Shown here one piece after another: positions 33,601 through 60,820 of a stretch of DNA of 64,000 nt. Within the stretch, counting starts at the first letter, position 1. Every line of letters begins with the position of its first letter. The notes beneath the pieces are model-generated. The model did no database searches. It worked only from the letters and a program-made list of their open reading frames with translations, and was not told the origin of the DNA. Origin of the DNA: Isosphaera pallida ATCC 43644 (GTDB lineage Bacteria > Planctomycetota > Planctomycetia > Isosphaerales > Isosphaeraceae); NCBI RefSeq assembly GCF_000186345.1, contig NC_014962.1:5360450-5424449 (forward strand). The letters run 5' to 3'. Both the position numbers and the translations under genes were made by a program.

Positions 33601-33606
33601 GGCCAT
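30604..33606 (-). CDS. large TPR protein with four VTQAFA-type linear repeats
   Basis: A 1000-residue cytoplasmic protein. The N-terminus has a Trp-rich lead and a TPR pair (AYVTQGNERFAAGDYSAAVE, about residues 40-115). A long acidic, Pro-rich region (about 120-590) holds four copies of one motif: VTQAFAAVRDLIDQE (about 249), VTQAFAAVRNLIDQE (about 364), LTQAFVAIRQQLEPE (about 442) and VTQAFAVLRDQFDVE (about 492). A second TPR array spans about 600-800, and the last 170 residues are Pro/Ala/Ser-rich. The layout suggests a scaffold whose short motifs dock a partner. A PilG-like response regulator gene lies 158 bases upstream on the same strand, and the design parallels the TPR-CheW protein at 47370. 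Function unknown. Confidence 0.78.
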   Translation of the reverse strand: MATETATLTWVRDPRDKSWVAERAGYRLARTTGLSYADAYVTQGNERFAAGDYSAAVESYRRALELKNDCPEAHNNLGVALALEGDRIQAVAAFRAALRDRPQWPTARANLAEALASTPPPETETETETETNSESPQAASESPPTEIAQITPPETTPVGEAEQTEPTADLFPQTIPSDMEDSPEVPFFEEFAPVATGHQFAPLSPQSFSLAGFTELAKDAFEDAAAPPAEPLESPPADLVKPLLTPEPPQVTQAFAAVRDLIDQETRAIPASPSSPPPSDDAPVPIRRTEANSGISFLADTFNAEEESAVVEVPATMERAPDARRGDTAAELNVAEFRNLLNAGALSPDELLDFDSPRPTPIRPRVTQAFAAVRNLIDQEIKPAGSTTSSPPTSPSPGNFALDIPDPSLTVFQEAVDQEDARRATRATVMGAIPPPDATFPRPGLTQAFVAIRQQLEPEPQPLPEPQPSPSPSRSTPADAPDETTPTLRGRPGVTQAFAVLRDQFDVETKSSPPPAAALFPPIKPESIVTPPPATMPPIGRPDPDPPFEAVASIIPMPPRTAQTIPSASPSLPTVGDAVSTEPHPPEDERTLRAELERNPNDPTLLRRLAEQLARRGAFREASIYLDRAARLTPDEAGVWLEWSSVLVGLRRLDEAIDALGHAIERPHSAPAWLIAKAHRNLADLLRVRRRLDQIIADATEAARQRPNEAQPVITLALAQTARGRFEEAIASYETALSLQPDASAELLVNLGLLHARLSRLDRARDCLRQALTRRPDLAEAHEALADLLENPASDWRFVEIVPEPVPSLHARSDSSRFVVSPAAPSAAPANRLSAAAVPTTSPASTSTAPPSSPPAPPAASAPPVSSRADRPNTQMLDLDSISQLVAASMRGALASPAPSAPAVSAPPVGPASAPVSPPPELPRAAPPRPGRVLRPVELIEPESPPASATPAGDPTKAKLKPTDVVRPLASFDWSMLDVEPTPPRPRTTPSRPIAPPRQT

Positions 33607-33764: not shown

Positions 33765-34202
33765 TTAGGACCGTTTTGGGGGAGAGGCGACCGGAACTCC
33801 CGGCACACGGGCCGGGTCTGAGGCCGCTCCGGCTGGTCGGTTGAGCAACCGCGTTACCGTGCTGACCAGTCCCTCGGGTTCGAAGGGTTTGGTGAGGTAG
33901 TCGTCGGCTCCCTGCCGCAGACCCCAGTAGCGGTCGCTTTCGCCGCTTTTGCTGGAAAGCAGCAAAATCTTGATGTGACGGCTGGCGGGGTCGTTCTTGA
34001 GGTGGCGGCAAACCTGAAAACCGTTGATCTTGGGCAAAATGATGTCCAAGACAATCAGGTCCGGCTTTTCGCGCTTCACCAGCTGCAGGGCGGCCTCGCC
34101 ATCAGTGGCGGTCAACACCCGAAACCCGCCGTCTTCCAACGCCGCCGAGGCCATCCGCAGCACGGTGGGACTGTCTTCAACAATGAGGATCGTGGCGGAC
34201 AA
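33765..34202 (-). CDS. single-domain response regulator (PilG/CheY type)
   Basis: A 145-residue receiver domain with a short Pro-rich tail. The acidic pair is in ILIVEDSPTVLR, the phospho-acceptor is Asp53 in LIVLDIILP, and the conserved Lys is in LTKPFEPEGLVS. It has no output domain, so it acts by protein contact as CheY or PilG does. The start is a TTG at 34202 with AAGGAG seven bases upstream; extending to ATG 34265 adds non-conserved residues. It is encoded upstream of the VTQAFA/TPR protein and probably co-transcribed with it. Its KPFEP motif matches the receiver of the TPR-response regulator at 45072, linking the two loci. Confidence 0.88.
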   Translation of the reverse strand: MSATILIVEDSPTVLRMASAALEDGGFRVLTATDGEAALQLVKREKPDLIVLDIILPKINGFQVCRHLKNDPASRHIKILLLSSKSGESDRYWGLRQGADDYLTKPFEPEGLVSTVTRLLNRPAGAASDPARVPGVPVASPPKRS

Positions 34203-45071: not shown

Positions 45072-46118
45072 ATGGCCCGAAACTCCCTCGAGAAAGGGAT
45101 TGCCGCCGCCAAGGCGGGGAACAAGCTTCTGGCCAGGCTCCACTTACTGGAGGCGGCCGAGCGGCACCCGCAGGAAATCACCTGTTGGTTGTGGCTGGCC
45201 TGGGCCTCGGATTCGCCCGAGGACGCGGTCTCGGCGCTGCGCAAGGCGTTGGGGATCGACCCGGACCACGAACTGGCCAACGCGGGGATGGCCTGGGCGC
45301 GGGGAATGGGTCAATTGGCCACGTCCTCGGAGATGGGTTCGCCCACCACGCCTTCGGAGTTGGTCAAGGTCAGCCCGGCTGGTTCGGCTCGAATGGGTGC
45401 GTCCCCAGCGGCGTTGACGCCGACCGGCTCGCCCCAGGTGGTGGTGCCGCCGGTGGCTCCTAAGCCCTGGGAATTCGGCAGCGGCGAATCAGGGGGATCG
45501 GCAGCTCGGGGCATCCCGGCCGCGGCCGCGGCCGCAGCTCCCGTCCCCGTTCCGTCAGGGTCGTCGTCGGGATTGCGCCCCGTCACGCCGCCCGCGTCGG
45601 GGGCCGGCCTGGCAGTGGGTTCCGGCTCGTTTCCTCCCGTGGCCGCCCATGCGGCCAACGGCCAAGGTTTGGGTGGTTCCTCCAGCGCCTCGGTCGTGTC
45701 GGTGGCCCCGCCAGAGTCGGGCGAGGCCGACGCTGCCCGCAAGCCTACCATCCTGGTGGTGGATGACAGCCAGACGGTACGCAAACTGGTCTCGATCACC
45801 CTCAAGGGCCGGGGATACGATGTGCTGGAAGCCAACGACGGCATCGCCGCCCTCGACGTGATCTCCAACCGCAAACCGGACCTGATCCTGCTGGATATCA
45901 CCATGCCCCGGCTGGACGGCTACAAGCTCTGTAAAATCATCAAAGGACATGACGAGACCCGCCATATCCCAGTGATCATGCTCTCGGGCAAGGACGGCTT
46001 TTTCGACAAGGCCCGCGGCAAGTTTGTGGGCTGCACCAGCTACATCACCAAACCCTTCGAGCCGGGAGCGCTGATCCAAGAGGTCGAACGTCACACCCCG
46101 GTCCCTGTCGCCGGCTGA
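45072..46118 (+). CDS. TPR-response regulator fusion (first gene of chemosensory cluster)
   Basis: A 348-residue protein. Residues about 1-80 are a helical TPR-like region (LEKGIAAAKAGNKLLARLHL, ALRKALGIDPDHELANAGMA). A low-complexity Pro/Ala/Ser/Gly linker covers about 85-225. The C-terminal receiver domain has ILVVDDSQTVRKLVS, the phospho-acceptor Asp275 in LILLDITMPRLDGYKL, and the Lys in TYITKPFEPGAL-like context. Receiver type and KPFEP motif resemble PilG/PilH and cyanobacterial PatA/TaxP-like regulators. The TPR part probably directs it to a partner, perhaps the TPR-CheW protein two genes on. It is the likely output of the CheA at 53083. Confidence 0.88.
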   Translation: MARNSLEKGIAAAKAGNKLLARLHLLEAAERHPQEITCWLWLAWASDSPEDAVSALRKALGIDPDHELANAGMAWARGMGQLATSSEMGSPTTPSELVKVSPAGSARMGASPAALTPTGSPQVVVPPVAPKPWEFGSGESGGSAARGIPAAAAAAAPVPVPSGSSSGLRPVTPPASGAGLAVGSGSFPPVAAHAANGQGLGGSSSASVVSVAPPESGEADAARKPTILVVDDSQTVRKLVSITLKGRGYDVLEANDGIAALDVISNRKPDLILLDITMPRLDGYKLCKIIKGHDETRHIPVIMLSGKDGFFDKARGKFVGCTSYITKPFEPGALIQEVERHTPVPVAG

Positions 46119-46358
46119 GCAGCAAATCGCCCCGCCCCCGGCGGTTTCGACCTTGGGAAATCCCCAAACCCTCCCATTTCGCCCGAGTATGCACTACGCT
46201 CAAGGTGAGACCGATTCACCAAGGTCGTCCGCGACGGCCGATCGCCGCGTCGATGCCGCCGCCTGGTCGCGTGGATGCCGCGATGGGTCGAACCCCCCGG
46301 CGCGAATGGGGATCAGGGCGGGGACGACGCATTAGCACTGGACTGGGAGGCGTTTGCG

Positions 46359-46913
46359 ATGACTGGGCTGGAGACCGGAGGACAAGGCGGCCTCACGCCA
46401 TCGACCACCCCTGCCAAACCCTTGAACCCCCAAGCCGACAGCAAACTCGAGTACGATCTGTTGATCCTGGTCAGTCAATTGGAACGCATGTTGGAAAGCC
46501 TCCGAAGCGAACGCAAGGCGGCGCGGCCTTTAGCCGCGGTCCAAACCGCGTGCGACCTGATCGAGCATGTCTTCCGATTTGCCGATGGCCGGGTGGAGTT
46601 GCAGGCCAAGGTGATCGAACGATCTGAGCGGGTCCTCAATGAATCGCAGTCGTTGCGGGAGAAGTTTGAGGGCCTCTCCAAGCGTGAGGCCGAAGCATTT
46701 TTCAACGCCGATCCCAACGCGGGGGGATTGCGCGAAGATCATCGCCGGTTCGGTTTGATGCTCCGCTCTGCTTTGGAGGGCTATTTCGTCCTCTTCGCCG
46801 CTTCCTTCACCGACCCCGCACGTGTTCAAACCTGGCGTCAAACGTTTAAGGTTTTTCTGGACGACCTGATCCGTCGCTGGGTCAACCCCGAAAACCAGAC
46901 CGCCTCCTCGTGA
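46359..46913 (+). CDS. unknown helical protein in chemosensory cluster
   Basis: A 184-residue soluble protein. ATG 46359 has GGGAGG ten bases upstream. The first about 28 residues are Gly/Thr/Pro-rich. The rest is predicted helical: YDLLILVSQLERMLESLRSE (about 32-51), a middle helix with ELQAKVIERSERVLNESQSL, and a C-terminal helix with FKVFLDDLIRRWV. There is no signal peptide, membrane segment, Hpt His-box or phosphatase motif that I recognise. Its position between the TPR-response regulator and the TPR-CheW protein makes a role in signalling or in the motor-facing output plausible, but this rests on context only. Confidence 0.72.
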   Translation: MTGLETGGQGGLTPSTTPAKPLNPQADSKLEYDLLILVSQLERMLESLRSERKAARPLAAVQTACDLIEHVFRFADGRVELQAKVIERSERVLNESQSLREKFEGLSKREAEAFFNADPNAGGLREDHRRFGLMLRSALEGYFVLFAASFTDPARVQTWRQTFKVFLDDLIRRWVNPENQTASS

Positions 46914-47369
46914 CCTTCCCCCTGTTGGGGATGGGATGCCGAATGGATGTCGTTTCGTTTCACCTCCTTGGAATTGCAACCCAATCGCGCGACGTGTTCC
47001 CGATCCCCGCGCCGGCAGGACTAAAGACGGGAACTGGTCCAGTCTGCCTGCCCCGCCGTTCGACTCGAACGGTTCTTTGCGACGTGATGGATCGGGTGAC
47101 TCGACGCGCTGCGGAGCCGTCGATCCCCTGCTGGGCTTGGTTGGATCCCGCTCCGCCTCAAGGCGGCCAAGTCTCCAACCCTACGACGGCAGCGTTCGCA
47201 ACCGCGGCCGTCTTGCCCCCTTCGGGCCCTGCGCCCTTGCCGATGGATTCCTCTCTTGAAGGGATTCATCGACTTGATCCGTCTCCCCCCGGTTGATCCC
47301 TGGGTTTCGTTCCACGCCGCGTTGTCACCCCCCCCCCTTCCAACCGCCCGGTGAGAGGATGTCATCGCC
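46914..47369 (+). other. non-coding gap within the chemosensory cluster
   Basis: About 456 bases. A 128-residue frame from GTG 46910 overlaps the previous stop but is Pro-rich with no start signal, and is not accepted. An internal promoter could lie here; none is clear. Confidence 0.4.
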
Positions 47370-50312
47370 GTGTCCGTCCCCGACCTCGACCCCCTGACCG
47401 ACCAACGCTCCGCTTGGGACGCCGACTCGTCCCACGGCCCGGCGTCCGGTGTCCGACGGGACGGTTGGCGCGCGTCGCCCGACGAATCCCGTGACACGCT
47501 CGATCCCCGAGGCGCTCTCCTTGTGTGTCATTGGTTGGAGCCCCAACGCAAACGGGGATACGCCGAGGCTTATTTGACCCTAGGTCAGGATCATCTTGTC
47601 AAGGGACGGCTCGACGAGGCCTACAAGGCGCTGCGACGCGCTTTGGAAATCAAGTCGAGCCTAGTGGAGGCCCAACCGGCTTTAGGGTTCACGCTGTTGG
47701 CTCAGGATCGAGCCGAAGAGGCTTCCGTCGTACTGGCGGCGCTTTGGGAAAGCGGTTTCGATCCAGCCTCGGCCCTGAATGGTCTGGGTTTGCTCGACTT
47801 GATGGCTGAACGCCTTCAAGACGCCCGCGACCGCTTTCACGAAGCCGCCGAGCGGAACCCACAACGTCCCGAACCCCGCTCCAATCTGGCAGTTTGCCTG
47901 GCGTTCCAAGGACGCGACGAAGAGGCCCGCGACCTTTGGAACCAACTGCGGACCGAATACCCCCACTTTGCGCCCGCGGTGGTCAACCTCGATCGCCTCG
48001 ACGGTGGACACGCCGAATTGGTCTCCGCCGAACCCCTCCAACGACAAATCGCCGCCATTCTGGCCGACGGCCTCGTGGAAGTCGAAGCCGACTCCGGCCT
48101 CATCCGGCTGGTGCGCGTGGTGGGAACCACCCAAAACCCCTCCGAGCCGGAGGGCCACGACGACTCCTCCGCCAGCCAACTCATCGCAGCGCTGGGCTAC
48201 CCGTCCGAGACGCGGCCGGATGGCTCGCCCGCCGAGAATGCGAATGCCTCCGCCACCGAAACAGCGGAGAGCGAAGCGGAAACCACCGACCCCGACGCCT
48301 GGATGGAGGCCGACCTCCAAGTGGAACTCGGTCGCGCCCTGATGCTCCAAGAACGCGACGAGGACGCCCGCGACGCCTTTCGACGGGCGCTTCGACTCAT
48401 CCCGCATCACCCAGACGCGCTCCAAGCCCTTCACGAGTTGGAGACGAGAAGCCACGCGGAACCACCCTCCATCGCCTCGCCTCCGTCGCCACCATCGCCC
48501 GCGCTTCGGATCACGCCGTTCCCACCGTTGGAGCCATCGGGACTGACGGCCGACGCTCCATACGATCCGGAGCAGGAGGAGACAGGCGCAGGGGATACGA
48601 GTTTCGAGCCGCGGCTGGACTTGGCTTGGCTCAACGCACCCCGCGCCGAGCCCAACGGGCAGGTCCAACCCAAGCCCCAAGGCTTCGACGGACCCGCGTC
48701 GGGCTTCGGCGGCCCCGCGTCGGGCTTCGGCGGCCCCGCGTCGGGCTTCGGCAGCCCCGCGTCGGGCTTCGGCTCCACCGTCGGGGTGGCCGCCGAGGTT
48801 GATCCTGCCACCTTCCTCCCCCTGGAGCTTCCCAACGACACGCATGCTACCCCGGCCTCGGAACCATCTCACCCAGCTTCAGCTTTGGCGACCCGCGACG
48901 CCCCGCCCCCAGTTGACAACCCGGTCGCCCCGGCGGTGGACGCTCCCGTCGCACGGTCTTCCTTCTCGGAGGCGGCGACGCTAATCGCTCGGGCCGCTGG
49001 GCACGATTCCGACTCCGATCCCAAGGAGAAGGAGCTTCAGCGTCCCCTCGAAGCGCGATACGCGGTCGAAGCGGTTCCCACCTCTCCCCCGTCCAACACG
49101 GCCACTGCACCTCGGAAGGCTGCGACCGAGACCGCTCGGAACGAGACTTGCAGCGACGAACTCCAACCTCGTACCCCTCTGGTCGGCGATTCACGCTGGG
49201 CGGCTCCCGCCCCCTCTCCGCTTCGGGAACTGGAATCGGAGTCGGAATTGAAGTCGTCGGAACCGATCCCGCCCCCAACCGCTGCCTCAGTCACGGACAC
49301 TGCAGCGGAGGGGGAACGTCGAGCTGACGCGGTTTCGATTGACTTCGAGTCGCCGTCGAACTGGGAAGAACGCCTGATTGAAACCCTCCAACCCTCCGTC
49401 TCTCCGTCGCCGCCCGTGGTGGAGAGCGAGAGCGACTCGGGACCACAGGATTCAGAGCAGGCCGCCTCCCCCCTTCAGGACGAAGACGATCCGTCCGTCA
49501 AAGCCGTCGCCGCGCCATCACCTGTCCCACCTGCGGGCCACGAGGATGAGGAAGTGCGCGCGGCGGTGATACGGGCCTTCGGTGCCCAGGCTGCGGCTCT
49601 TTTGACCGAGGAGGAGCCGTTTCAGACCGCGGCCGAGCGCTCACCTGTCTCCACGGTTCCTCTGGAAGATCTGGTCGCCGGCATTGATGCGGCGATGGCC
49701 GCCAGCGACCTCCAGTTGGCGAGTTCCGCGTCCGTCGCCGAGTCACACCCATCGCCTCAGTCGGGTTGGAGCGTGGCGATGGTGCCGACCCCGCGACGGG
49801 ACGAGGCCGCCGCAACACGGGTCCGGCACGTGGTGTTCACCCTGGGCCAAACCCAATTCGCCGTGCCGATGTCCAGCGTCCTCGAGATTCAACGTCCCCC
49901 CAAGGTCACCCCCATCCCCAACGTGCCAGATTGGGTGCTGGGCGTGACCAACCTCCGAGGCGACGTGCTGTCCCTCGTTGATCTCCGGTGCTTCCTGGGA
50001 ATGGATCCCGTCGATTACGACCGCGCCGGGCGCATGATGGTGGTCCGCTCCGCCGACCAGGATCTGACCACCGGCCTGATCGTCGATCGAGTCAACGGCT
50101 TGATCGCCTTCAGCGATCAGGAAGTGCAACGCCTTCGCATGGGCGGCGAGTCGGGCACTTTAAGTCTTGACCACGACTTGTTTCCCTTCGCCCGAGGTAT
50201 TGTCGGTCGCCCCAGCTCGGAATCCAGTTCCGGCCCGGACCAATTGATTGTCGTGCTGGATTTGGAGAGCTTGCTCCAATCCGAGGAAATGAGGCAATTC
50301 CAGCCAAGTTGA
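47370..50312 (+). CDS. TPR-CheW fusion protein
   Basis: A 980-residue cytoplasmic protein. Residues about 60-215 form TPR repeats (AYLTLGQDHLVKGRLDEAYKA, then LNGLGLLDLMAERLQDARDR); one more TPR lies near 315-355 (ELGRALMLQERDEDARDAF). Residues about 370-800 are low-complexity Pro/Ser/Glu sequence including a GFGGPAS repeat. The last about 160 residues are a CheW domain: VVFTLGQTQFAVPMSSVLEI, VLGVTNLRGDVLSLVDLRCF, GLIVDRVNGLIAFSD. CheW couples receptors to CheA, so this is an unusually large adaptor, with TPRs likely docking other partners. Start is the GTG at 47370 (GAGAGG about 13 bases upstream); other starts are possible. Confidence 0.87.
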   Translation: MSVPDLDPLTDQRSAWDADSSHGPASGVRRDGWRASPDESRDTLDPRGALLVCHWLEPQRKRGYAEAYLTLGQDHLVKGRLDEAYKALRRALEIKSSLVEAQPALGFTLLAQDRAEEASVVLAALWESGFDPASALNGLGLLDLMAERLQDARDRFHEAAERNPQRPEPRSNLAVCLAFQGRDEEARDLWNQLRTEYPHFAPAVVNLDRLDGGHAELVSAEPLQRQIAAILADGLVEVEADSGLIRLVRVVGTTQNPSEPEGHDDSSASQLIAALGYPSETRPDGSPAENANASATETAESEAETTDPDAWMEADLQVELGRALMLQERDEDARDAFRRALRLIPHHPDALQALHELETRSHAEPPSIASPPSPPSPALRITPFPPLEPSGLTADAPYDPEQEETGAGDTSFEPRLDLAWLNAPRAEPNGQVQPKPQGFDGPASGFGGPASGFGGPASGFGSPASGFGSTVGVAAEVDPATFLPLELPNDTHATPASEPSHPASALATRDAPPPVDNPVAPAVDAPVARSSFSEAATLIARAAGHDSDSDPKEKELQRPLEARYAVEAVPTSPPSNTATAPRKAATETARNETCSDELQPRTPLVGDSRWAAPAPSPLRELESESELKSSEPIPPPTAASVTDTAAEGERRADAVSIDFESPSNWEERLIETLQPSVSPSPPVVESESDSGPQDSEQAASPLQDEDDPSVKAVAAPSPVPPAGHEDEEVRAAVIRAFGAQAAALLTEEEPFQTAAERSPVSTVPLEDLVAGIDAAMAASDLQLASSASVAESHPSPQSGWSVAMVPTPRRDEAAATRVRHVVFTLGQTQFAVPMSSVLEIQRPPKVTPIPNVPDWVLGVTNLRGDVLSLVDLRCFLGMDPVDYDRAGRMMVVRSADQDLTTGLIVDRVNGLIAFSDQEVQRLRMGGESGTLSLDHDLFPFARGIVGRPSSESSSGPDQLIVVLDLESLLQSEEMRQFQPS
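48690..48773 (+). repeat. four tandem 21-bp repeats
   Basis: Four adjoining 21-bp units of the type GGCCCCGCGTCGGGCTTCGG encode GPASGFG repeats in the linker of the TPR-CheW protein. Units are nearly identical at DNA level. Confidence 0.85.
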
Positions 50313-50439
50313 CCAGATCCCGGCCCCGGCCTAACCGGTCGCTTGATCGCCGCGTTTCGTCCCGAACCACCCCACCGCCACCGCACTGCGTCCCCACCGC
50401 CACGCACCCCGGCCCGCCGGATTCAGGAGAGCGAACGTG

Positions 50440-52749
50440 ATGTCGATATCCACGCTTCGGCAGAAATTGGCGCTGATTTTGGCGCTGCTGTTAGTACCGG
50501 CGGCGCTGCTGCTGTTGTTGACCCTGATTCTCAAGAAAGACCCGATCGACCGGGCCTCGACCCAATTAGCCACACTGGACTACCAAGAGAACCTCAAGTC
50601 GGTCGTGGCGCTTTGGCAAGGGGCGCGTCGGGAAGCGGCCACCACTGGAGAGATCGCCTCCGGGTCGTGGAAGGAGTTGCAAACGGCCGTCGAAGCGGCG
50701 TTTGGAACGGTAGATCGTCAGAACGCCTCGTGGGGCTCCACCCTGGGCGTCTCCAACGCCTGGGCAGAACTCAAGGAAAAATGGCGGGGCTTCCGTCCCG
50801 GCCTGCCGCCCGAACAAATCTACGAAAGTCTCAACGAACTGATCGACGACGCGCTGGCGATCGACCGACGACTGACCGCCGTAGGGGGCTGGACCCTGGA
50901 CACCAGCGTGCCCAACGCACTAGGGCAAACCACCCTCTCGGACCTCAGCGGAGCCGTCGAAGCCGTGGCCCGCGCCCGCGACCGCGCCGCCATCGCTACC
51001 CGGATCAACCCCCAGGCTGACCTTGCGGTGTTGGTCGATCTAGGCAGTCTGCGTGGTTCGCTGGCCCGAGTGACCGATGATTTTTCAAGCCTGGTGCAAG
51101 GTAACCCGAGCCTCGCGGCCGATCTGGGTCCATCGTTCGCGGTCTTCACCGGGGGCGGTCGCCGGGGCGGAACCCTAGGCAAGGCCGATCAGTTCGTCGC
51201 CTCGCTGACCACCGGCGGAGCCGACCCCGCCCGCGACACTAAGGCCGCCGAAGCGGTCGCCGCCGGTCTAGAAGCCCAAAAGGGTCTGCGTCAAGCGCTT
51301 CGGGAAAGTGTCACCCTGTTTCAAGAAAAGCAACGCTATCAACTCTTCATTCTAACCGGAGCGGTCTTGATCGGTCTGACGTTGACCCTAGCCCCGCCGA
51401 TCTATCTGATCGGACGGCCCATGCTGGCTCAGGTCCAAGAGATCGTCAACACCCTGGACGAGATCGGTCGCGGCTCGTTCGAGTCCCGCGCCCGCATTTA
51501 TACCCAGGACGAACTGGCACGGGTGGCCGAATCGATCAATTCGATGCTGAACAACTTCAACAACCTAATCCAGTCGCAGTCGGAACGGGACGACATTCAA
51601 GGGGCTATTCAGAAGCTGATGTCCGAAGTGGCCGACGTGGCCTCCGGCGACCTGACGGTCGAAGCGGAGGTGACCAACGACTTCACCGGCAGCTTGGCCG
51701 ACGCGATCAACTTCATGATTTCGCAGCTTCGAGCAATTGTCTCCAACGTGCAACAGGCCACCTTGCAGGTGTCGCAGTCGGCCAACGACATCATGGTGAC
51801 CACCGAACACCTCTCGCGGGGCGGTGACGCCCAGGCGACCCAGATCATGGAGACCTCCGAGGCGATCGACGAAATTGCCGCCTCGATTCAGCAGGTGGCT
51901 GATAACGCCACCCAGTCGCTCTCGGTGGCTGAACAAGCCCGGATCAACGCCCGCAAGGGAACCGAGGCGGTGCGCGACACGATCAACGGTATGGATCGGA
52001 TCCGCGACCAAGTGCAGGAAACCGCCAAACGGATCAAGCGGCTCGGCGAAAGCTCGCAGGAAATCGGCGACATCGTCAAGCTGATCGGCGACATCGCCGA
52101 CCGTACCAGCATCCTCGCGCTCAACGCCTCGATCCAGGCAGCGATGGCCGGCGAGGCGGGCCGCGGCTTCGCCGTGGTCGCCGAAGAAGTCGAACGGCTG
52201 GCTGAACGGTCCAACGAGGCAACCCGCAAGATCGCCACCCTGATCAAAACCATTCAAACCGTCACCGCTGAAGCCGTCGCGGCGATGGAGGAATCGACCC
52301 GCGAAGTGGTCGAAGGGTCCAACCTCGCCTTGACCGCCGGCCAGGCGCTGAGTGAAATCGACCAGGTGTCCAACAAGCTGGCCGAGATCATCCAGGCGAT
52401 CGCCTTCTCGGTCAAACAACAGGCGCGGGGCTCCGAAGCCCTCTCCAAGGCGATGGGCCAGATCTCGGTCGTTACCCAACAAACCGCCGCGGGCACCCGC
52501 GAGGCGGCCAAGTCGGTCAGCCACCTGGCCCGTTTGGCCGACGATCTGCGCAACTCGGTGAGTACCTTCAAACTACCGCCCCGCGACGGCTCCTCTCCCG
52601 CCGGCTTCGGCTCGACCATGGCCCCAGCGCTGCCCACTTCCACCCGGGTCCGTTCGGTCAACGGCGTCTCCGGCTCCTCGATCTCGGTTCCCTCGGGCTC
52701 CGAGACCGGCTATTCCCAGTTCAACCAACGGGTCAGCGTCACCCGCTGA
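50440..52749 (+). CDS. methyl-accepting chemotaxis protein, PilJ-like
   Basis: A 769-residue transmembrane receptor. TM1 is about residues 10-29 (LALILALLLVPAALLLLLTL). A helical extracytoplasmic domain of about 265 residues has no recognised ligand fold. TM2 is about 298-320, followed by HAMP (RPMLAQVQEIVNTLDEIGRG) and a second HAMP-like stretch. The signalling hairpin holds ADRTSILALNASIQAAMAGE and AGRGFAVVAEEVERLAERS (about 555-592), close to the PilJ pattern. There is no C-terminal CheR/CheB tether. ATG 50440 is chosen; the GTG one codon earlier sits closer to AGGAG. It should sense a stimulus in the envelope and control the CheA encoded next. Confidence 0.92.
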   Translation: MSISTLRQKLALILALLLVPAALLLLLTLILKKDPIDRASTQLATLDYQENLKSVVALWQGARREAATTGEIASGSWKELQTAVEAAFGTVDRQNASWGSTLGVSNAWAELKEKWRGFRPGLPPEQIYESLNELIDDALAIDRRLTAVGGWTLDTSVPNALGQTTLSDLSGAVEAVARARDRAAIATRINPQADLAVLVDLGSLRGSLARVTDDFSSLVQGNPSLAADLGPSFAVFTGGGRRGGTLGKADQFVASLTTGGADPARDTKAAEAVAAGLEAQKGLRQALRESVTLFQEKQRYQLFILTGAVLIGLTLTLAPPIYLIGRPMLAQVQEIVNTLDEIGRGSFESRARIYTQDELARVAESINSMLNNFNNLIQSQSERDDIQGAIQKLMSEVADVASGDLTVEAEVTNDFTGSLADAINFMISQLRAIVSNVQQATLQVSQSANDIMVTTEHLSRGGDAQATQIMETSEAIDEIAASIQQVADNATQSLSVAEQARINARKGTEAVRDTINGMDRIRDQVQETAKRIKRLGESSQEIGDIVKLIGDIADRTSILALNASIQAAMAGEAGRGFAVVAEEVERLAERSNEATRKIATLIKTIQTVTAEAVAAMEESTREVVEGSNLALTAGQALSEIDQVSNKLAEIIQAIAFSVKQQARGSEALSKAMGQISVVTQQTAAGTREAAKSVSHLARLADDLRNSVSTFKLPPRDGSSPAGFGSTMAPALPTSTRVRSVNGVSGSSISVPSGSETGYSQFNQRVSVTR

Positions 52750-53082
52750 TCCCCTCCCGCTCCGCTCCGTCGTTCGGCTCGGCGAAGCCATTTCGCTTGG
52801 TTTGGCTTGCCCCGGCTCCAGCGCTAACCCTGCCCCGCGTCCTCATCCGTCCCCAGAACCCGTCGCCACCTGCTGGCATCAGCGCCGAGGCGGCCGATCG
52901 TTTCGACCCAAACGAAGTCGAGTCAATCCGAAGCGATCGGATTACCCCGGAGCCAGGCGACCTGGACCAGATCGAGGTCAGCGCGAGGCGCGCGAGCCTA
53001 GCGCCCCTAAGGTTTTCAAACCCAGCTATCGACGGAGCTCCCCGTTCGGATCGGTTGATCGGAGCCAGCGAGGTCTCCCTCC
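52750..53082 (+). other. gap between receptor and CheA genes
   Basis: About 333 bases with no accepted gene; the open frames are shadows. It may hold a promoter for cheA, but none is clear. Confidence 0.4.
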
Positions 53083-56000
53083 ATGTCCAACTTTGTCCGC
53101 CGAGACGATCTGACCGGATTCCTCCACGAAGCCGACGAGGCGCTCCCTGCCATTCGCCAAGCGGTCGAGGACGCCCTGATCGATCCCGACCAAAGCCATC
53201 GCCTTACCGAAGCCCATCGTCTGGCCCATTCGATCCGAGGAGCCGCGGCGATGGTCCGATTGGAGCCGATGGCCCGGCTCCTGAGTATCCAGGAGGAACT
53301 CCTGGAGGACTTGATTTACCAGGCTGACTCGCCCTCCGAACAAACCGCTGAACTGCTTTTGACCTGCTTCGAGACCATTGACTCGGCCCTGAGTTTGCTC
53401 CGCGACCTGCTGGGTGGACCCGCGGTTGAGGACGACGCGGCTCGCCTTGCCGCCGTGGCCGTTGAAAGCCTCGAACCGCTCACCCGCTCGATCGACGCCC
53501 GCTACCTGCCTTATCGGGCCGACCATCCCAAAGTCTTCTCCTCGCCCACCTTGCTCGACGAGGAATCCGACCGGGACGAGGAGATGGACACTCCAGCCCA
53601 AGACTTCGACTCGTTCTCGTTTGAGCCATCCGACAAATCTGAATCCGACCAACTCAACCAGTCCGATCCCGATTCAATCGACCTGGCGGATCGGGTCGCC
53701 CACCTGGGACTCGACCCCGCCGAAGGGTTGCTCAACGACCCCCTGGCGCTGGTTCAAGCCCTCGATCGTCTCGATCCCGTCGTGCTGGACCGCTTCGACG
53801 CCATCGAGCCGGAACTCCGCGAGGTCTTCGCTGAAGAGGCCGAGGATCATCTCCAACAACTTCGCATCAACCTTCAACGGCTTCACCAATCCCGCGACGA
53901 TCACGAGGCCCAGAAGGCGATTCGCCGTAGCGCCCACACCCTCAAGGGAGCCGCCGGCCTGGTGGGTCTGCACGGCTTCTCGCGGATCGCCAAGCGATTG
54001 GAAAACCTAATCGACTACCTGCACGACCATCACTTGGAGCTGCGTCCAGCCACCTTTGCCCTGGTGGAAACCGCTATCAACCTGCTCGAACAACAATGGT
54101 CCGGTCAGTTCGAGCCTGAGGCAATGCGTGAGCGTGTCGCCGACCTGTTGGCCCGAATCGACCTGCTTCTCGATCCCCCCGCGCTCTCGCAGGTGTCCGG
54201 GACCGCGGCCACGACGCCCGCGCTGAGTCCAATCTCGCCGCCGGTTGCCGAAACGATCGCGGCTTCCTCCCGCTCGCTGTCTGACGAAGTGGCCGCCGCC
54301 CTCTGGGACAAGCAATCGAACCTGAACCTGGTGAGGACGACGGACACCCCCACCACCCCGGGCTCCGACTTCGAGGCGATCGACCCCGAATTGCTGCAGG
54401 TCTTCGCTCAGGAGGCCGAAGACCACCTCCGTTCCATCGACGACTCGCTCCGCCTGCTGGGCCGTAACCCCGAGGACTTCGAGGCACTGGATGAACTCCG
54501 GCGGGCGATTCACACCCTCAAGGGAGCCGCCGGTAGCGTCAAGTTCGGCATCCTGACCCGCCTGACCCACCGGATGGAAGATGTGCTGGATTGGGTGGCG
54601 ATCCGCGCTCAGCCGATCCGTCCTGAGTTGCATGAGCTTCTGCAACGCACGATGGACGTGATCACTGAGTTGATCGAACATCCCCAACCGACCACCACAG
54701 CCTCCGTACCCGCGCTGCTCTCGCGCTATGACGACCTGCTGGCGCGGGCGCGGGCGGAAGTGGTTTCCGAACCCGGCTTTCCCATCGACCCGCCCATCCA
54801 CACCACGCCATTGTCGGTGCCCACGGTCGATCCCCAATCGCTGTCTGGTCTGTTGCAACACGGCGCGACGTCCGGCCCGTTGTCCGAAGCGCTCGGGGCA
54901 CCCTCGGGTTCGTTTGGTTCGAGGTCGGGGGCCACTCCTTCATTCTCCTCCCCCCCTCTCCCTGTCGGCGGACCTTCGGGAGCATCTCTCCCACCGTCTC
55001 CGATGGAATCGCTCGGTGCCGAGACCAGCTCGGGCGAGTTCGCCAGTCATGCTGGCTCGGGCGAGTTCGCCGGTTACCCGGGTTCGGGCGAGTTCCCAGT
55101 CTCCCCACTGCCTCATCTCCCCGCGTCCACTCCCGAGGACGCAGTCCCGGCGGCGTCCTCCCCGGCGACCTCAGAAATCCCGGAATCGATTCGGTTGCTC
55201 TTCCCGCCGGTTCCGCTCGACGACATCGACAAGATTCCGCCCGAATTGCTGGAAGTCTTCGCCCAGGAAGCCGAAGACCACCTCCGCGCGATCTACTCGG
55301 CGCTGGCGATCCTGGAACGCAACCCCAGTCAAATCGAGGCGTTCCGGGAAATTCGCCGCAGCGTCCACACCCTCAAAGGGTCCGCCGGCCTAGTCAAGCT
55401 CAATGGCTTGACCCAAATGGCCCACCAGATGGAACATCTGCTCGATCGCCTGGGGGACCATCCCGGCGAAATCGGACCCGACCTCCACGCAGTTCTCATC
55501 GACGCAACCGATGTTCTGCTGGACATGTCAATTGGCCAGTACGACCACGAGGTGATGCGGGCGGCGATCGAGAAGGTTCAAAGGGAACTGGCTCAGCAAC
55601 TTATTCAAGTCCAAGCGCGTCATTTGAGTCAATCCTCAACCGGCTCCTCGGTGGTCTCAAGAGCGTCTTCGGGTTTGGAGGCCGACTCGATCGATTGGTC
55701 GGCCGAGTTTGGTGCCCTCGCCGACCCGGCCATCTCCGCGCCGACGCCAACCGACCCGGTGGGGGCAGTCCCAGTCGCAACGGCAACGTCTCCCGCGGCG
55801 GGAGTGGGACCACGGGTCTCCGGGGAACCCAGCCGCAAGCCCAGCGAAATGCTCCGCGTCCCCCTGGAACGGATCGACGACCTGGTGCGCCTGGTCAGCG
55901 AATTGGTGATCAACCGAACCGCTTATGAGCAACGCATGGCCGACCTGAGCCGCATGGCCGAGGAAATCCAGGCCAGCGTCGATCGCCTGCGGGTCATCTC

Positions 56001-57960
56001 CAACGACCTGGAGACCCAGTACGAGGTCTCCGCGCTGGCACGGGGACGGCTAACCTGGTTGGCCGACCCGACCGGATCGCCGTCTGCCAACCCCACGCCG
56101 GCAGTCAACGGCCAAGCGTCGGGTTCTCCCAACGGCACCCCATCCACTCACAGCGCGGCGCGGTCGGAGACCGCCGAGGTCTTCGACTTCCTGGCGTCGC
56201 GGCGTCGGGGCGAGTTCGACGAACTGGAGATGGACCGCTACACCCAATTCCACCTGCTGACCCGCTCGCTCTCGGAAGTCTCCAGCGACTTGAACACCCT
56301 GGCTGGCGACCTCTTCGGCCTCATCAGCGACTTCGGCGGTTTGGCGACTCGCCAAGGTCGTCTTACCCGTGAGATCCAAGATAAGCTCATGCGGGTGCGA
56401 ATGGTTCCCCTAGGCACGCTCAACAACCAGTTGCAGCGAACCGTTCGCAGCGTCGCCGAACAAATGGGCAAGAAGGTGGATTTGATCCTGGAGGGGGAGC
56501 AGATCGAACTAGAGAAAACGGTGCTGGAGGAGATGGTCGAACCGTTCCTGCACCTGCTGCGCAACGCCGTCGATCATGGGGTGGAAACGCCAGCAGTCCG
56601 CCGCGAACGGGGCAAGCCCGAACGCGCTCGCATCGAAGTCCGCGCCTCGTATCAAGGAACCCAAGTGGTCCTTCAAGTCCGCGACGACGGCAACGGGATC
56701 GATCCCCAGGCCCTTCGCGCCGCGGCGGTGAGAAACGGGCTGCTTTCCACCGCGGAAGCCGAGGCGCTGAGCCGCGACGAGGCGCTGCAACTCATCTTCG
56801 TGCCGGGCATCTCCACCGCCCGCGAAGTCAGCGAGATTTCGGGACGGGGAGTGGGCATGGATGTGGTCAAGACCAAGATCCTCCGGCTCAAGGGAACGTT
56901 GACCCTGGAATCCACCCTGGGCCAGGGCACGACCTTCACCATTCGCCTGCCCATGTCGCTGGCGATCACTCGCGCTCTGCTGGTGGAGGCCGGGGATCGT
57001 CTCTACGCCATCCCGGTGCAGTCGATCACCCAGCTGTCACGGATCGACCGGGACCGCATTCAACAGGTGGGGCGGGAGCGTTTTATCCGTCTGGGCGAGC
57101 GTCTGTTGCCCCTGGTTCGGTTGGCCGACGTCCTGGACCTGCCCGCCACCCCGGCCGAGTCCACCGAACCCAACGTGCCGATCGTGGTCGTGGGGCTAGG
57201 CGGACGGTTCGTAGCCGTGGCGGTCGATCAATTGGTGGCCAACCGGGAAATCGTGGTCAAGACCCTGGGCAACCATCTCCGACGGGTGCACGGCCTCATC
57301 GGGGCGACCCTGATGGGGGATGGCACCGTGGTGCCGATCCTCAACCTCGTCGAACTCATCCAGGAACCCGGCCGGGTTGATCTAGCGCGAAAGGTCGGGC
57401 CGGTCGCCTCCTCCTCCACCTCGCCAGCGACGGCTCCATCGTCCGCAGCCGAGGCGGTCGCCACCGCCCTTCCCAGCGCTGCCCCCCTGGTGCCGCCCAC
57501 CAAGAGCGCGGAGGGGTCACTCTCGACTCGGGGCTCCAAGAAGCTCGGTTCCCGCAACCGGGACGGAGGTCCGCTAACGATCCTGGTGGTGGACGACTCG
57601 CCTACCGTGCGCCGCACCGTCTCCAACCTGATCAAAGACCAGGGCTGGACCCCCATCCTCGCCAAGGATGGTCTGGACGCCATCGAGACGCTGCAACGCT
57701 CCCCCGTCATCCCCGACCTCGTGCTGTTGGATATCGAAATGCCCCGGATGGACGGCTACGAAGTGCTCGGCAACCTCCGTGCCCAACCGTCGTTCCGGAA
57801 CCTGCCGATTGTGATGGTGACCTCGCGGGCCGGCCAAAAACACCGCCGCAAAGCGATGGACCTAGGAGCGACCGACTACGTGATCAAACCCTACGACGAC
57901 GAGGAGATGCTGGCCCGAATTCGCCGACTCGTCGGCAATCGTCGCGCGACCCTCATTTGA
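53083..57960 (+). CDS. cheA: hybrid chemotaxis kinase CheA with four Hpt domains and a receiver
   Basis: A 1625-residue kinase. There are four Hpt domains, each with its phosphorylatable His: His49 (RLAHSIRGAA), His285 (SAHTLKGAAG), His477 (AIHTLKGAAG) and His762 (SVHTLKGSAG). Hpt2-4 share the lead sequence FAQEAEDHL or FAEEAEDHL. After an SGEF-repeat linker and Hpt4 come the P3 dimerisation helices (about 925-1120), the HATPase with N-box HLLRNAVDHG (from 1157), DDGNGID (from 1201) and GRGVGMDVV, a CheW-like P5 domain (about 1295-1425) and a C-terminal receiver (Asp1550 in LVLLDIEMP). The order matches ChpA/PilL of pilus-control systems. It should phosphorylate its own receiver and the TPR-response regulator. 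Confidence 0.94.
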   Translation: MSNFVRRDDLTGFLHEADEALPAIRQAVEDALIDPDQSHRLTEAHRLAHSIRGAAAMVRLEPMARLLSIQEELLEDLIYQADSPSEQTAELLLTCFETIDSALSLLRDLLGGPAVEDDAARLAAVAVESLEPLTRSIDARYLPYRADHPKVFSSPTLLDEESDRDEEMDTPAQDFDSFSFEPSDKSESDQLNQSDPDSIDLADRVAHLGLDPAEGLLNDPLALVQALDRLDPVVLDRFDAIEPELREVFAEEAEDHLQQLRINLQRLHQSRDDHEAQKAIRRSAHTLKGAAGLVGLHGFSRIAKRLENLIDYLHDHHLELRPATFALVETAINLLEQQWSGQFEPEAMRERVADLLARIDLLLDPPALSQVSGTAATTPALSPISPPVAETIAASSRSLSDEVAAALWDKQSNLNLVRTTDTPTTPGSDFEAIDPELLQVFAQEAEDHLRSIDDSLRLLGRNPEDFEALDELRRAIHTLKGAAGSVKFGILTRLTHRMEDVLDWVAIRAQPIRPELHELLQRTMDVITELIEHPQPTTTASVPALLSRYDDLLARARAEVVSEPGFPIDPPIHTTPLSVPTVDPQSLSGLLQHGATSGPLSEALGAPSGSFGSRSGATPSFSSPPLPVGGPSGASLPPSPMESLGAETSSGEFASHAGSGEFAGYPGSGEFPVSPLPHLPASTPEDAVPAASSPATSEIPESIRLLFPPVPLDDIDKIPPELLEVFAQEAEDHLRAIYSALAILERNPSQIEAFREIRRSVHTLKGSAGLVKLNGLTQMAHQMEHLLDRLGDHPGEIGPDLHAVLIDATDVLLDMSIGQYDHEVMRAAIEKVQRELAQQLIQVQARHLSQSSTGSSVVSRASSGLEADSIDWSAEFGALADPAISAPTPTDPVGAVPVATATSPAAGVGPRVSGEPSRKPSEMLRVPLERIDDLVRLVSELVINRTAYEQRMADLSRMAEEIQASVDRLRVISNDLETQYEVSALARGRLTWLADPTGSPSANPTPAVNGQASGSPNGTPSTHSAARSETAEVFDFLASRRRGEFDELEMDRYTQFHLLTRSLSEVSSDLNTLAGDLFGLISDFGGLATRQGRLTREIQDKLMRVRMVPLGTLNNQLQRTVRSVAEQMGKKVDLILEGEQIELEKTVLEEMVEPFLHLLRNAVDHGVETPAVRRERGKPERARIEVRASYQGTQVVLQVRDDGNGIDPQALRAAAVRNGLLSTAEAEALSRDEALQLIFVPGISTAREVSEISGRGVGMDVVKTKILRLKGTLTLESTLGQGTTFTIRLPMSLAITRALLVEAGDRLYAIPVQSITQLSRIDRDRIQQVGRERFIRLGERLLPLVRLADVLDLPATPAESTEPNVPIVVVGLGGRFVAVAVDQLVANREIVVKTLGNHLRRVHGLIGATLMGDGTVVPILNLVELIQEPGRVDLARKVGPVASSSTSPATAPSSAAEAVATALPSAAPLVPPTKSAEGSLSTRGSKKLGSRNRDGGPLTILVVDDSPTVRRTVSNLIKDQGWTPILAKDGLDAIETLQRSPVIPDLVLLDIEMPRMDGYEVLGNLRAQPSFRNLPIVMVTSRAGQKHRRKAMDLGATDYVIKPYDDEEMLARIRRLVGNRRATLI

Positions 57961-58099
57961 CACCGGTTGGTTTTGGACACACACCTTTTAAAGATCAAAC
58001 ACCGCGCGACATGACACTCGCCTAGTCGCTCGCGCGTCGATCGCCAATTGTGTCCCGCTTTCCGTTCCAGTGGATTCAGGCAAGGGAAAGAGCCAGCCC

Positions 58100-59419
58100 A
58101 TGAGCGACCCACCATCGGCGTTGGGATCGATTCGCCAGCGGGAACGTCAGAGCGACCAAACCGGGTGGGACCACCCCCACGAGTCCCGAGTTCCGCTGAC
58201 CACCACCAGTCCAAGCCGACCGGCCACGGTCGCGCTGGCGCGGTGCGTCGCGGGTGGGCGTTCGTTGGCCCTGGAGATGACCGCCGTTGCCAGCGTCCAG
58301 CGCTCCAGTCGGATGAAGCGCGCTAAGGTGCCACCCGGCAGTGGCGCATTGGGCGTATTGGAGGAATCGGGCGGCCCAACCGTGCCAGTGTTCTCGCTGG
58401 CCGATTTGCTATGTTTCGATCACAGCGACAACGCGCGGCTCTCCAGCGGTTCCCGCGCCCGTGGCCGTCACATTCTGGTGCTTCGTGGAGCCGAAGGGCT
58501 CTGGGCCGTGCTGACCGACACCGTCTCGCGGGTGGTGGCAGTCCCCGATCAGGCGTTGATGACCCTGCCAAGCCCCGTGTTCGGCTCGGGCACGCCGCCA
58601 ATCAAGGCGCTGGTGCCCACCTCGGTGTTGAGGGAATCGCCCCACGCCCTGGCTTCAGTGTGGCGCGACGCCGAAAACCGTCCTGAGCGCGAGGAGTCCG
58701 ATCCCACGCCCGCAGGTGAGGCCGACGGTGAGATCGACGCCTTCGTGCCCCTCTTGGCTCCCGGCCGCCTGCGTCCAATCAACGGGGTGATTCGCTCGCT
58801 GGTCAAAACAGGCCAGGGGTGGAACGACGCCTTCGACGAGGAAGGACTCCTGCCAGCCCGAATCGGTCCCGCGCGTGCCACAGTCGCCGATGCCCCCATC
58901 CTGGGCGGCGGACACTCCAAGCGCGTCCTGTTCTTTCCCATCGAGGAATTCCAGGCCGATGGTCGTTCGGACGCCTCCTCGGGGGTGATCGTCAGCGTCT
59001 CCCAGGTCATCGCGGTGCTGGACGACGCCCCGATGCTGGTGATCCCCCTGGCACCCGGCGACGCCCCCGGCGTGATCGCCTGGCGTCAACGACCCATCCC
59101 CCTCATCGACCTGGCCGCCCGGCTGGGTCTGGCCCCCTCGTTGATCAACCCCGCCCGACGCAACCAACTGGCCGGCCGCGCTCTGCCGTTCCGCCGCCTC
59201 GCCGAAACCCGTGACGAGCGCCGGAGCCTGGCGGTGGTCCGCAACACCCTAGGCCAACTCTTCGCCTTCCCCACCCGTCCCGGCATCCGCACCATCACCC
59301 TGCCAGTCCCCTGTCGCCCTGTTGGACTCGACCCCCACATTCGATCCGACCTGCTGCGTGGCGCATTTCAGTGGAACGACCAACTTTGGCTGGTCCCTGA
59401 CCTCGACCGCATCCGCTAA
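58100..59419 (+). CDS. adaptor with two degenerate CheW domains
   Basis: A 439-residue soluble protein from ATG 58100. Domain 1 (about residues 35-185) has VALARCVAGGRSLALEM, VFSLADLLCF and LWAVLTDTVSRVVAVPD. Domain 2 (about 275-435) has RVLFFPIEEFQ, VIVSVSQVIAVLDDAPMLVI, GVIAWRQRPIPLIDLAARLGL and QLFAFPTRPGIRTITLP. Both follow the strand order of CheW, but domain 1 lacks the usual NLRG-type centre. CheW links receptor tips to CheA in arrays. A two-domain form could bridge neighbouring units or, as with PilI/ChpC-type pairs, serve two inputs. It ends the cluster, 139 bases after cheA. Confidence 0.72.
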   Translation: MSDPPSALGSIRQRERQSDQTGWDHPHESRVPLTTTSPSRPATVALARCVAGGRSLALEMTAVASVQRSSRMKRAKVPPGSGALGVLEESGGPTVPVFSLADLLCFDHSDNARLSSGSRARGRHILVLRGAEGLWAVLTDTVSRVVAVPDQALMTLPSPVFGSGTPPIKALVPTSVLRESPHALASVWRDAENRPEREESDPTPAGEADGEIDAFVPLLAPGRLRPINGVIRSLVKTGQGWNDAFDEEGLLPARIGPARATVADAPILGGGHSKRVLFFPIEEFQADGRSDASSGVIVSVSQVIAVLDDAPMLVIPLAPGDAPGVIAWRQRPIPLIDLAARLGLAPSLINPARRNQLAGRALPFRRLAETRDERRSLAVVRNTLGQLFAFPTRPGIRTITLPVPCRPVGLDPHIRSDLLRGAFQWNDQLWLVPDLDRIR

Positions 59420-59611
59420 ACCAAGCCAAGGCCAATCATCCGCAAAGTCCAGCCGCGCCGCCAAGACGCCCGGGAGATGGGCGATCATCGGGTAAACTCC
59501 CTTCGAGTGAATGTCGCGCCGCCAGGGAATGGTCCCGTCCCTGGCGTCGCGCTCCGACCACTCCACTCCGATCGCCTTGGATTCACCCGTGACCGTTCCG
59601 CGAGACCGCCG

Positions 59612-60820
59612 ATGCACATCCTTTTCGTTCATCAGAACTACCCGGCCCAGTTCGGCCACATCGCCCGATATCTGGTCAAACGGCACGGGTTTCGGTGTTC
59701 GTTCCTCTCCAACAAACCGGCGGGCTTGGTGGACGGCATCCAACGCTACCAGTACACCCCAATCGGCGGAGCCACCAAAACAACCCATTATTGTGTGCGA
59801 ACCTTTGAAAACGCGGTGGCCCACGCCCACGGGGTCCACGCCGCCTGCCGCCAGTTCCCCGGCCTCAAACCCGACCTCATCGTGGGCCATTCCGGCTTCG
59901 GCTCGACCCTCTTCCTGCGAGAGTTGTTCGATTGCCCCATTCTCAACTATTTTGAATATTTTTACCACCCCCACGGTTCCGACCTCGATTTCCGTCCCGA
60001 GTTCCTGCCCCGCGAGATCGACTTTTTGCGGTCCTACTGCCGCAACGCCATGATCCTGCTCGACCTCAACAACTGCGACCGCGGCTACAGCCCAACCGTA
60101 TGGCAGCGAAGTCTGTTCCCCCCCGAATATCTCGACAAGATCGAAGTCATCTTCGACGGAGTCGATCGCGCCATCTGGTCGCGGGTCGAGAACCCTCAAC
60201 GAGTCGTCGCGGGCGAGGCGATCCCCAACGGCGTCAAGATCGTCACCTACGTCTCCCGCGGCTTCGAGGCGATGCGCGGCTTTGACATCTTTATGAAGGC
60301 CGCCAAGCGGATCGCCCAACGCGACCCCGACGTGTTGTTCATCGTGGTCGGTTCCGATCGGGTCTCCTACGGCGGTGACCTCAAGTACATCCAAGAGAAG
60401 TCATTCCGTGAACACGTTCTCAAGCAAGATGATTATGACCTCTCACGATTTCGGTTCGTCGGTACCGTGCCGCCCCAGGAGCTGGCCCGCATCTTCTCGC
60501 TGAGCGACGCGCACATTTATTTGACTGTTCCATTCGTGCTGTCATGGTCGCTGTTCGACGCGCTGGCCTGCGGCGCGACGGTGATCGCCTCCGACACCCC
60601 GCCGGTGCGGGAATTGATCGAACACAACCGCACCGGGTTGCTGGCACCCTTCCACGATGACGAGGCGATCGCCGAGGCGACCTTGGCGGTGTTGCGCGAT
60701 CCCCGGGGTCATCGTCACTTGGCGCGGGCGGGCATGGAACTCATCGAGGAAAAGTACACCCTGGATCGCTGCCTGCCGCGGCTGCTCGACCTTTATCAAC
60801 GGGTGGCTCAGTCGAGATGA
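59612..60820 (+). CDS. glycosyltransferase (GT4/GT-B type)
   Basis: A 402-residue GT-B enzyme starting at MHILFVHQNYPAQFGHIARY, the standard family start, so ATG 59612 is chosen over the longer open frame. The N-terminal acceptor half has LIVGHSGFGSTLFLRELFDC. The C-terminal nucleotide-sugar half has VTYVSRGFEAMRGFDIFMKA, VGSDRVSYGG, and LVP-like YLTVPFVLSWSLFDALACG, followed by the E-x7-E-type region VIASDTPPVRELIEHNRTG. Such enzymes build surface polysaccharides or lipid-linked sugars. Donor and acceptor are unknown. It follows the chemosensory cluster by 192 bases in the same direction; slime or exopolysaccharide for gliding is a possible but unproven link. Confidence 0.87.
   Translation: MHILFVHQNYPAQFGHIARYLVKRHGFRCSFLSNKPAGLVDGIQRYQYTPIGGATKTTHYCVRTFENAVAHAHGVHAACRQFPGLKPDLIVGHSGFGSTLFLRELFDCPILNYFEYFYHPHGSDLDFRPEFLPREIDFLRSYCRNAMILLDLNNCDRGYSPTVWQRSLFPPEYLDKIEVIFDGVDRAIWSRVENPQRVVAGEAIPNGVKIVTYVSRGFEAMRGFDIFMKAAKRIAQRDPDVLFIVVGSDRVSYGGDLKYIQEKSFREHVLKQDDYDLSRFRFVGTVPPQELARIFSLSDAHIYLTVPFVLSWSLFDALACGATVIASDTPPVRELIEHNRTGLLAPFHDDEAIAEATLAVLRDPRGHRHLARAGMELIEEKYTLDRCLPRLLDLYQRVAQSR

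Follow-up and report, generated by a model that had tools for sequence, protein, structure and literature searches.

Which system directs the movement of Isosphaera pallida, a hot-spring bacterium that carries numerous pili and no flagella, glides, and forms phototactic comets (PMC3072084)? No heterotroph had been reported as phototactic before it (PMC3072084), and its directional movement is known yet unexplained. A 64,000-nt window of the I. pallida ATCC 43644 genome (the whole stretch of DNA analyzed; coordinates without a prefix are positions in it, and P0001 to P0007 are its proteins) contains a six-gene chemosensory cluster at 45072–59419, which makes this movement genetically testable. 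We conclude that the cluster is probably a chemosensory system of the type IV pilus class (Pil-Chp/Tax), the kind by which other bacteria steer pilus-driven crawling, and that it probably acts in gliding by biasing how pili extend and retract. An earlier note on this DNA had described six plus-strand genes; all six open reading frames (ORFs) were confirmed, with the expected third-position GC bias, as were their Pfam domains and catalytic residues:

45072–46118, plus strand: P0001, a TPR-receiver response regulator of the PilG/PixG type (Pfam Response_reg, 92.5 bits; receiver tree).
46275–46913, plus strand: P0002, an all-helical protein equivalent to the C-terminal half of a DUF4388 protein (iterated hidden Markov model, HMM).
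47370–50312, plus strand: P0004, a TPR-CheW adaptor in the PilI position (Pfam CheW, 101.8 bits, and several strong TPR families).
50437–52749, plus strand: P0005, a PilJ-type receptor with a helical sensor domain (~32–303), HAMP, and MCPsignal (Pfam).
53083–57960, plus strand: P0006, a ChpA-type CheA with four Hpt domains, H-kinase_dim, HATPase, CheW, and a C-terminal receiver (Pfam).
58070–59419, plus strand: P0007, a double-CheW adaptor in the ChpC position (two CheW stretches, Pfam).

The class assignment made in the earlier note is borne out by homology, regulator type, and gene order. As references we used annotated records, namely one Acinetobacter baumannii locus and one cyanobacterial tax locus (Allocoleopsis). 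The signalling region of P0005 has 52.4% identity, over 334 aa, with the receptor that Acinetobacter encodes beside its PilG, PilH, and ChpA genes, compared with 40% for the cyanobacterial receptor. Among the references, P0004 best matches the CheW found in the PilI position of Acinetobacter, P0001 is 46% identical to a protein annotated as PilG, and P0006 is 30% identical to the Acinetobacter kinase over 964 positions. A receiver tree separates a PilG type, a PilH type (support 0.991), and a ChpA/kinase type (0.985), the last of which includes the P0006 receiver. Grouped with the P0001 receiver, at low support, are the protein in the PilG position of Acinetobacter, PATAN-REC proteins of cyanobacteria, and TPR-REC proteins of the relatives described below. 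In P0006, the phosphorylatable histidine is kept in all four Hpt domains (H49, H285, H477, and H762), and the kinase has intact N and G boxes. The proteobacterial receptors L104–L110 (L-numbers are loci from genome searches) were rejected as a Pil-Chp reference, as no chemosensory neighbours were detected around them.

The I. pallida system shares with the Pil-Chp systems of Pseudomonas and Acinetobacter the receptor tip, PilG and PilH regulators, a multi-Hpt CheA with a receiver, and the gene order. The likeness to Acinetobacter extends to the four Hpt domains and to the lack of pilK at that site; there, the four-Hpt ChpA-type kinase is required for surface motility (PMC5635159). I. pallida differs from Pil-Chp in having TPR fusions in both PilG and the adaptor, a displaced PilH, an extra DUF4388-derived helical protein, a double CheW in the place of ChpC, and a different sensor domain. 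The cyanobacterial Tax/Pix systems (pixGHIJL) are also alike: the Allocoleopsis order is regulator, regulator, CheW, receptor, CheA-receiver, CheW, and the wider module includes a DUF4388/PATAN element.

Gene order was compared across the neighbourhoods of 12 close receptor relatives (L089–L100; 51–65% identical), which were drawn from a scan of named genomes and come from planctomycete, acidobacterial, Anaerolineales, and other genomes or metagenome-assembled genomes (MAGs). These neighbourhoods have a related receptor and the same order as I. pallida. In L089–L097, the common order is TPR-receiver, DUF4388/helical protein, free receiver, CheW, receptor, (CheR), multi-Hpt CheA-receiver, (CheB), (double CheW), which matches pilG-pilH-pilI-pilJ-pilK-chpA-chpB-chpC of Pil-Chp. 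In the relatives PilH has stayed at its usual place, and CheR or CheB lies beside the receptor or kinase in several of them, whereas I. pallida keeps the regulator-regulator-CheW-receptor-kinase-CheW order except for a PilH displaced by 11 kb. No close receptor counterpart was found in the other sampled Isosphaeraceae genomes (n = 44), in which high-scoring matches are just 30–37% identical; the loci retrieved around them contain other chemotaxis clusters, mostly of the ordinary single-Hpt type. The best-scoring CheA core in 392 planctomycete genomes is 42% identical. An origin from ordinary planctomycete chemotaxis clusters was therefore rejected, since the Isosphaeraceae clusters differ (single Hpt) and no close CheA was found in those 392 genomes. 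In several relatives, an M16 peptidase gene lies just upstream of the PilG-type gene (L091:846-2159, L093:3428-4753); none was seen at that place in I. pallida.

The bounds 45072–59419 hold for the six genes but leave out the second regulator, which was found about 11 kb upstream by tblastn of the relatives' free receiver against the window:

33765–34202, minus strand: a stand-alone receiver of the PilH/PixH type (Response_reg, 100 bits; tblastn; tree).
30604–33606, minus strand: a 1000-aa TPR protein that adjoins the PilH-type gene on its downstream side (Pfam TPR).

Compared with the receivers in the PilH position of eight relatives, this receiver shows 48–60% identity, and it falls in the PilH group of the receiver tree (support 0.991). 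Identity and tree position mark it as the second regulator of the system, displaced from the cluster. A PilH pseudogene in the 456 nt that separate P0002 from the TPR-CheW gene was considered and rejected, as no receiver match is present there and the intact gene lies upstream. The 1000-aa TPR protein, which is 39% identical over 64 aa to the TPR of the TPR-CheW protein, is by its position a possible partner of the PilH-type receiver.

Three of the cluster proteins are best understood against the relatives. P0002, previously described as an unknown helical protein, is helical (AlphaFold2 model, a helical bundle with a predicted local distance difference test score, pLDDT, of 77) but not unknown. 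It matched no Pfam family, and its model had no convincing structural match in the PDB; however, an iterated HMM joins it to the same-locus DUF4388 proteins of L091, L095, L096, and L097 and to the DUF4388-less versions of the planctomycetes L090 and L092–L094. Non-planctomycete relatives keep DUF4388, whereas the planctomycete versions lack it; judged against the relatives, the DUF4388 half has been lost in I. pallida. DUF4388 is the core of the PATAN domain. In cyanobacteria PATAN is fused to the PixG receiver, whereas in the clusters of I. pallida and its relatives the element is separate or lost (PMC5812497 for PixG). In P0006, Hpt2–4 all resemble the kinase-proximal Hpt of the relatives and Hpt1 resembles the distal one, and the four-Hpt layout therefore probably arose by duplication of the proximal Hpt. 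Both adaptor genes had been called unusual fusions, which does not apply to the double CheW: it recurs after CheA (or CheA-CheB) in L093 and L096, with a homologous gene in L094. The TPR of P0001 scores 17.5 bits by itself, below the Pfam cut-off of 23.5, and its syntenic relatives have clear TPRs. At the TPR-CheW place, the adaptors of Gemmata-type relatives carry DUF11 (Ig-like) repeats where I. pallida has TPR (L090:7007-8911, L093:7038-8741), which is odd for a cytoplasmic adaptor. The gaps between the six genes measure 109–456 nt, so a single transcript is not to be assumed; a promoter and terminator scan gave no more matches than chance.

The absence of CheR and CheB, first remarked for the cluster alone, proved to be genome-wide and is thus a stronger result than the one originally claimed. 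Model searches of the complete I. pallida genome (5,472,964 + 56,340 bases, searched whole for CheR, CheB, and CheW) found neither enzyme, whereas among 14 control genomes the same models were positive for CheR in 7 and for CheB in 6. CheR is present in all 12 relatives' genomes and occupies the pilK position in L089 and L091; CheB occupies the chpB position in L091 and L096. Compared with these syntenic relatives, the I. pallida genome has by its sequence lost both, and with them the counterparts of the Pseudomonas-type adaptation pair PilK (CheR) and ChpB (CheB). Such an absence is already known in cyanobacteria and is not unique to I. pallida; the control genome of Synechococcus elongatus encodes CheW and lacks both enzymes. 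Without CheR and CheB, the receptor has no known route to methylation memory and is predicted, from the genome-wide absence, to be unable to adapt by methylation. It is very improbable that the receptor does undergo methylation, by an enzyme so diverged that the models miss it: diverged enzymes could escape such searches, but both models were positive in diverse control genomes, and the CheR model in every relative. The strict methylation motif is missing from P0005; this was discarded as a sign of lost adaptation, because CheR-bearing relatives also lack it. Synechocystis, whose system belongs to this class, reportedly does not respond to a spatiotemporal light gradient and instead uses micro-optics to sense the direction of light (PMC4758948); steering is thus possible for a system that has no memory. 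A system without CheR/CheB methylation would suit the reading of instantaneous spatial asymmetry rather than comparison over time.

Control of pilus motility by the cluster is well supported by homology. In I. pallida, PilT scores 445 bits against a curated cut-off of 319, which is exceeded at two places in the genome; a pilT gene lies at G000:C2:4108793. Also encoded are PilM, a PilC/GspF-like protein, and two PilB-like ATPases. Ten of the 12 relatives likewise have a PilT above the cut-off in their genomes (11/13 counting I. pallida). Several observations weigh against this assignment. PilB scores 632 bits, just under the equivalog cut-off of 676; the cluster neither contains nor adjoins a pilus gene; the CheA tree groups P0006 with ChpA at poor support (0.53–0.59); the genomes of L091 and L098, both MAGs, lack a full PilT match; and PilT-type ATPases are common, so that their co-occurrence is weak evidence. 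The second PilB-like ATPase (L015:14142-15860), which lies beside PilT and the first PilB, carries an MshE-type domain that binds cyclic di-GMP, suggesting an input of this messenger to the pilus motor.

From these components we infer a signalling route in which the PilJ-like receptor would read a signal outside the cytoplasm, a ligand or surface contact, through its helical sensor domain, and the TPR-CheW adaptor would link it to the four-Hpt CheA. Phosphate from CheA would go to three receivers: the one in CheA itself, that of the PilG-type TPR protein, and the displaced one of the PilH type. In Pseudomonas, the FimV hub positions PilG, and PilH opposes PilG (PMC12632253); in Synechocystis, the PATAN regulator PixE is reported to bind PilB1 (PMC7690835). 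The PilG-type TPR-receiver of I. pallida would be the output to PilB/PilT, its TPR may stand in for a FimV-like docking hub, the PilH-type receiver may serve as a brake or sink, and the double CheW may be an accessory, ChpC-like adaptor. Alternatively, the cluster could mainly set pilus number, adhesion, exopolysaccharide, or surface signalling instead of the direction of movement, a reading that we regard as possible though doubtful. Pil-Chp systems elsewhere govern other surface behaviours and pilus production (PMC12632253, PMC5635159), and loss of adaptation is easier to reconcile with a slow output than with the tracking of gradients. A GT4 glycosyltransferase gene (59477–60820, plus strand) begins 57 nt past the double-CheW gene and is possibly co-transcribed with it; however, no glycosyltransferase was seen at that place in the relatives' clusters on inspection of their sequences, and the PilG/PilH pair and the PilT retraction motor point to motility.

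P0005 contains no recognised photosensory domain in Pfam, GAF included, whereas the cyanobacterial Pix receptor carries a bilin-binding GAF. The AlphaFold2 model of the receptor has a mean pLDDT of 67, with the sensor part ranging from about 50 to 92. Residues 23–298 of the sensor model align with the nitrate sensor NasR (4akk) at Z 20.6, with a root-mean-square deviation of 4.2 over 252 residues and 8% identity, and this alignment scores well above every other row that covers the sensor part. The domain has one invariant Arg in its first helix, no Pfam match to NIT (nitrate/nitrite sensing), and no sequence match in the PDB. We hypothesize from the model that P0005 has a NIT-like sensor. The HBM-type sensor domain of PilJ is also helical (PMC12632253), and its structure (8WDF) is absent from the structural matches listed, which neither supports nor excludes a likeness; a Foldseek search with the whole receptor model returned top matches to the signalling domain only.

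The photoreceptor search, made for the phytochrome family alone, found two bacteriophytochromes (L142:5099-9280, minus strand; L143:7560-10490, plus strand) with PAS-GAF-PHY, a kinase, and a Cys near the N-terminus. One has a C-terminal receiver, and one adjoins a receiver-kinase gene; in genome coordinates the two genes map to G000:C2:1657681 and G000:C2:4284624. Both are better photoreceptor candidates than P0005 for I. pallida phototaxis. That the cluster is itself the phototaxis controller, with light acting through the receptor or a soluble photoreceptor to bias pilus activity towards light, has some points in its favour: I. pallida glides and is phototactic, Tax1 of cyanobacteria, the nearest functional model and one of the same class, governs phototaxis (PMC5812497), and the genome holds just two methyl-accepting chemotaxis proteins with their own CheAs, plus the two phytochromes with an N-terminal Cys. 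We nevertheless consider it unlikely. The receptor lacks a recognised photosensory domain, and its modelled sensor resembles one that binds a small ligand; both phytochromes have kinases of their own and are encoded at a great distance; and homologues of the system occur in Acidobacteria, in other planctomycetes, and in other MAGs, while the receptor is not found in the other sampled Isosphaeraceae. The light component of the earlier proposal is thus not favoured by receptor anatomy. As a long shot, the two bacteriophytochrome kinases could act on the PilG/PilH regulators or the pilus motors, by way of phosphate or a second messenger, so that an adaptation-free Pil-Chp would steer the filaments of a non-photosynthetic bacterium to light by a spatial readout without methylation memory, as proposed for Synechocystis.

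Among the papers listed by a literature search, none linked a planctomycete to Pil-Chp. The case described here is a variant within a known class, a Pil-Chp system with TPR fusions, a displaced PilH, and the genome-wide absence of adaptation enzymes. With its PilH relocated and without the enzymes that its relatives retain, it offers a natural experiment for asking what methylation memory contributes to surface taxis. Across the I. pallida genome, CheW domains occur only in this cluster and at a second locus, which gives two CheAs, and the search with P0005 gave two receptors with the signalling domain. The problem of directional movement is thereby narrowed to a pair each of receptors, CheAs, and phytochromes, together with a small PilB/PilT motor set. 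The second cluster (L007:8118-19194; G000:C2:2678117-2689193) encodes an FHA protein, a small protein, CheW, a receptor with an odd tip (NAKLAATRAREHGQEF), a CheA-receiver with two nearly identical Hpt repeats, and a receiver-DUF4388-receiver protein, and a homologous cluster is present in another Isosphaeraceae genome (L056).

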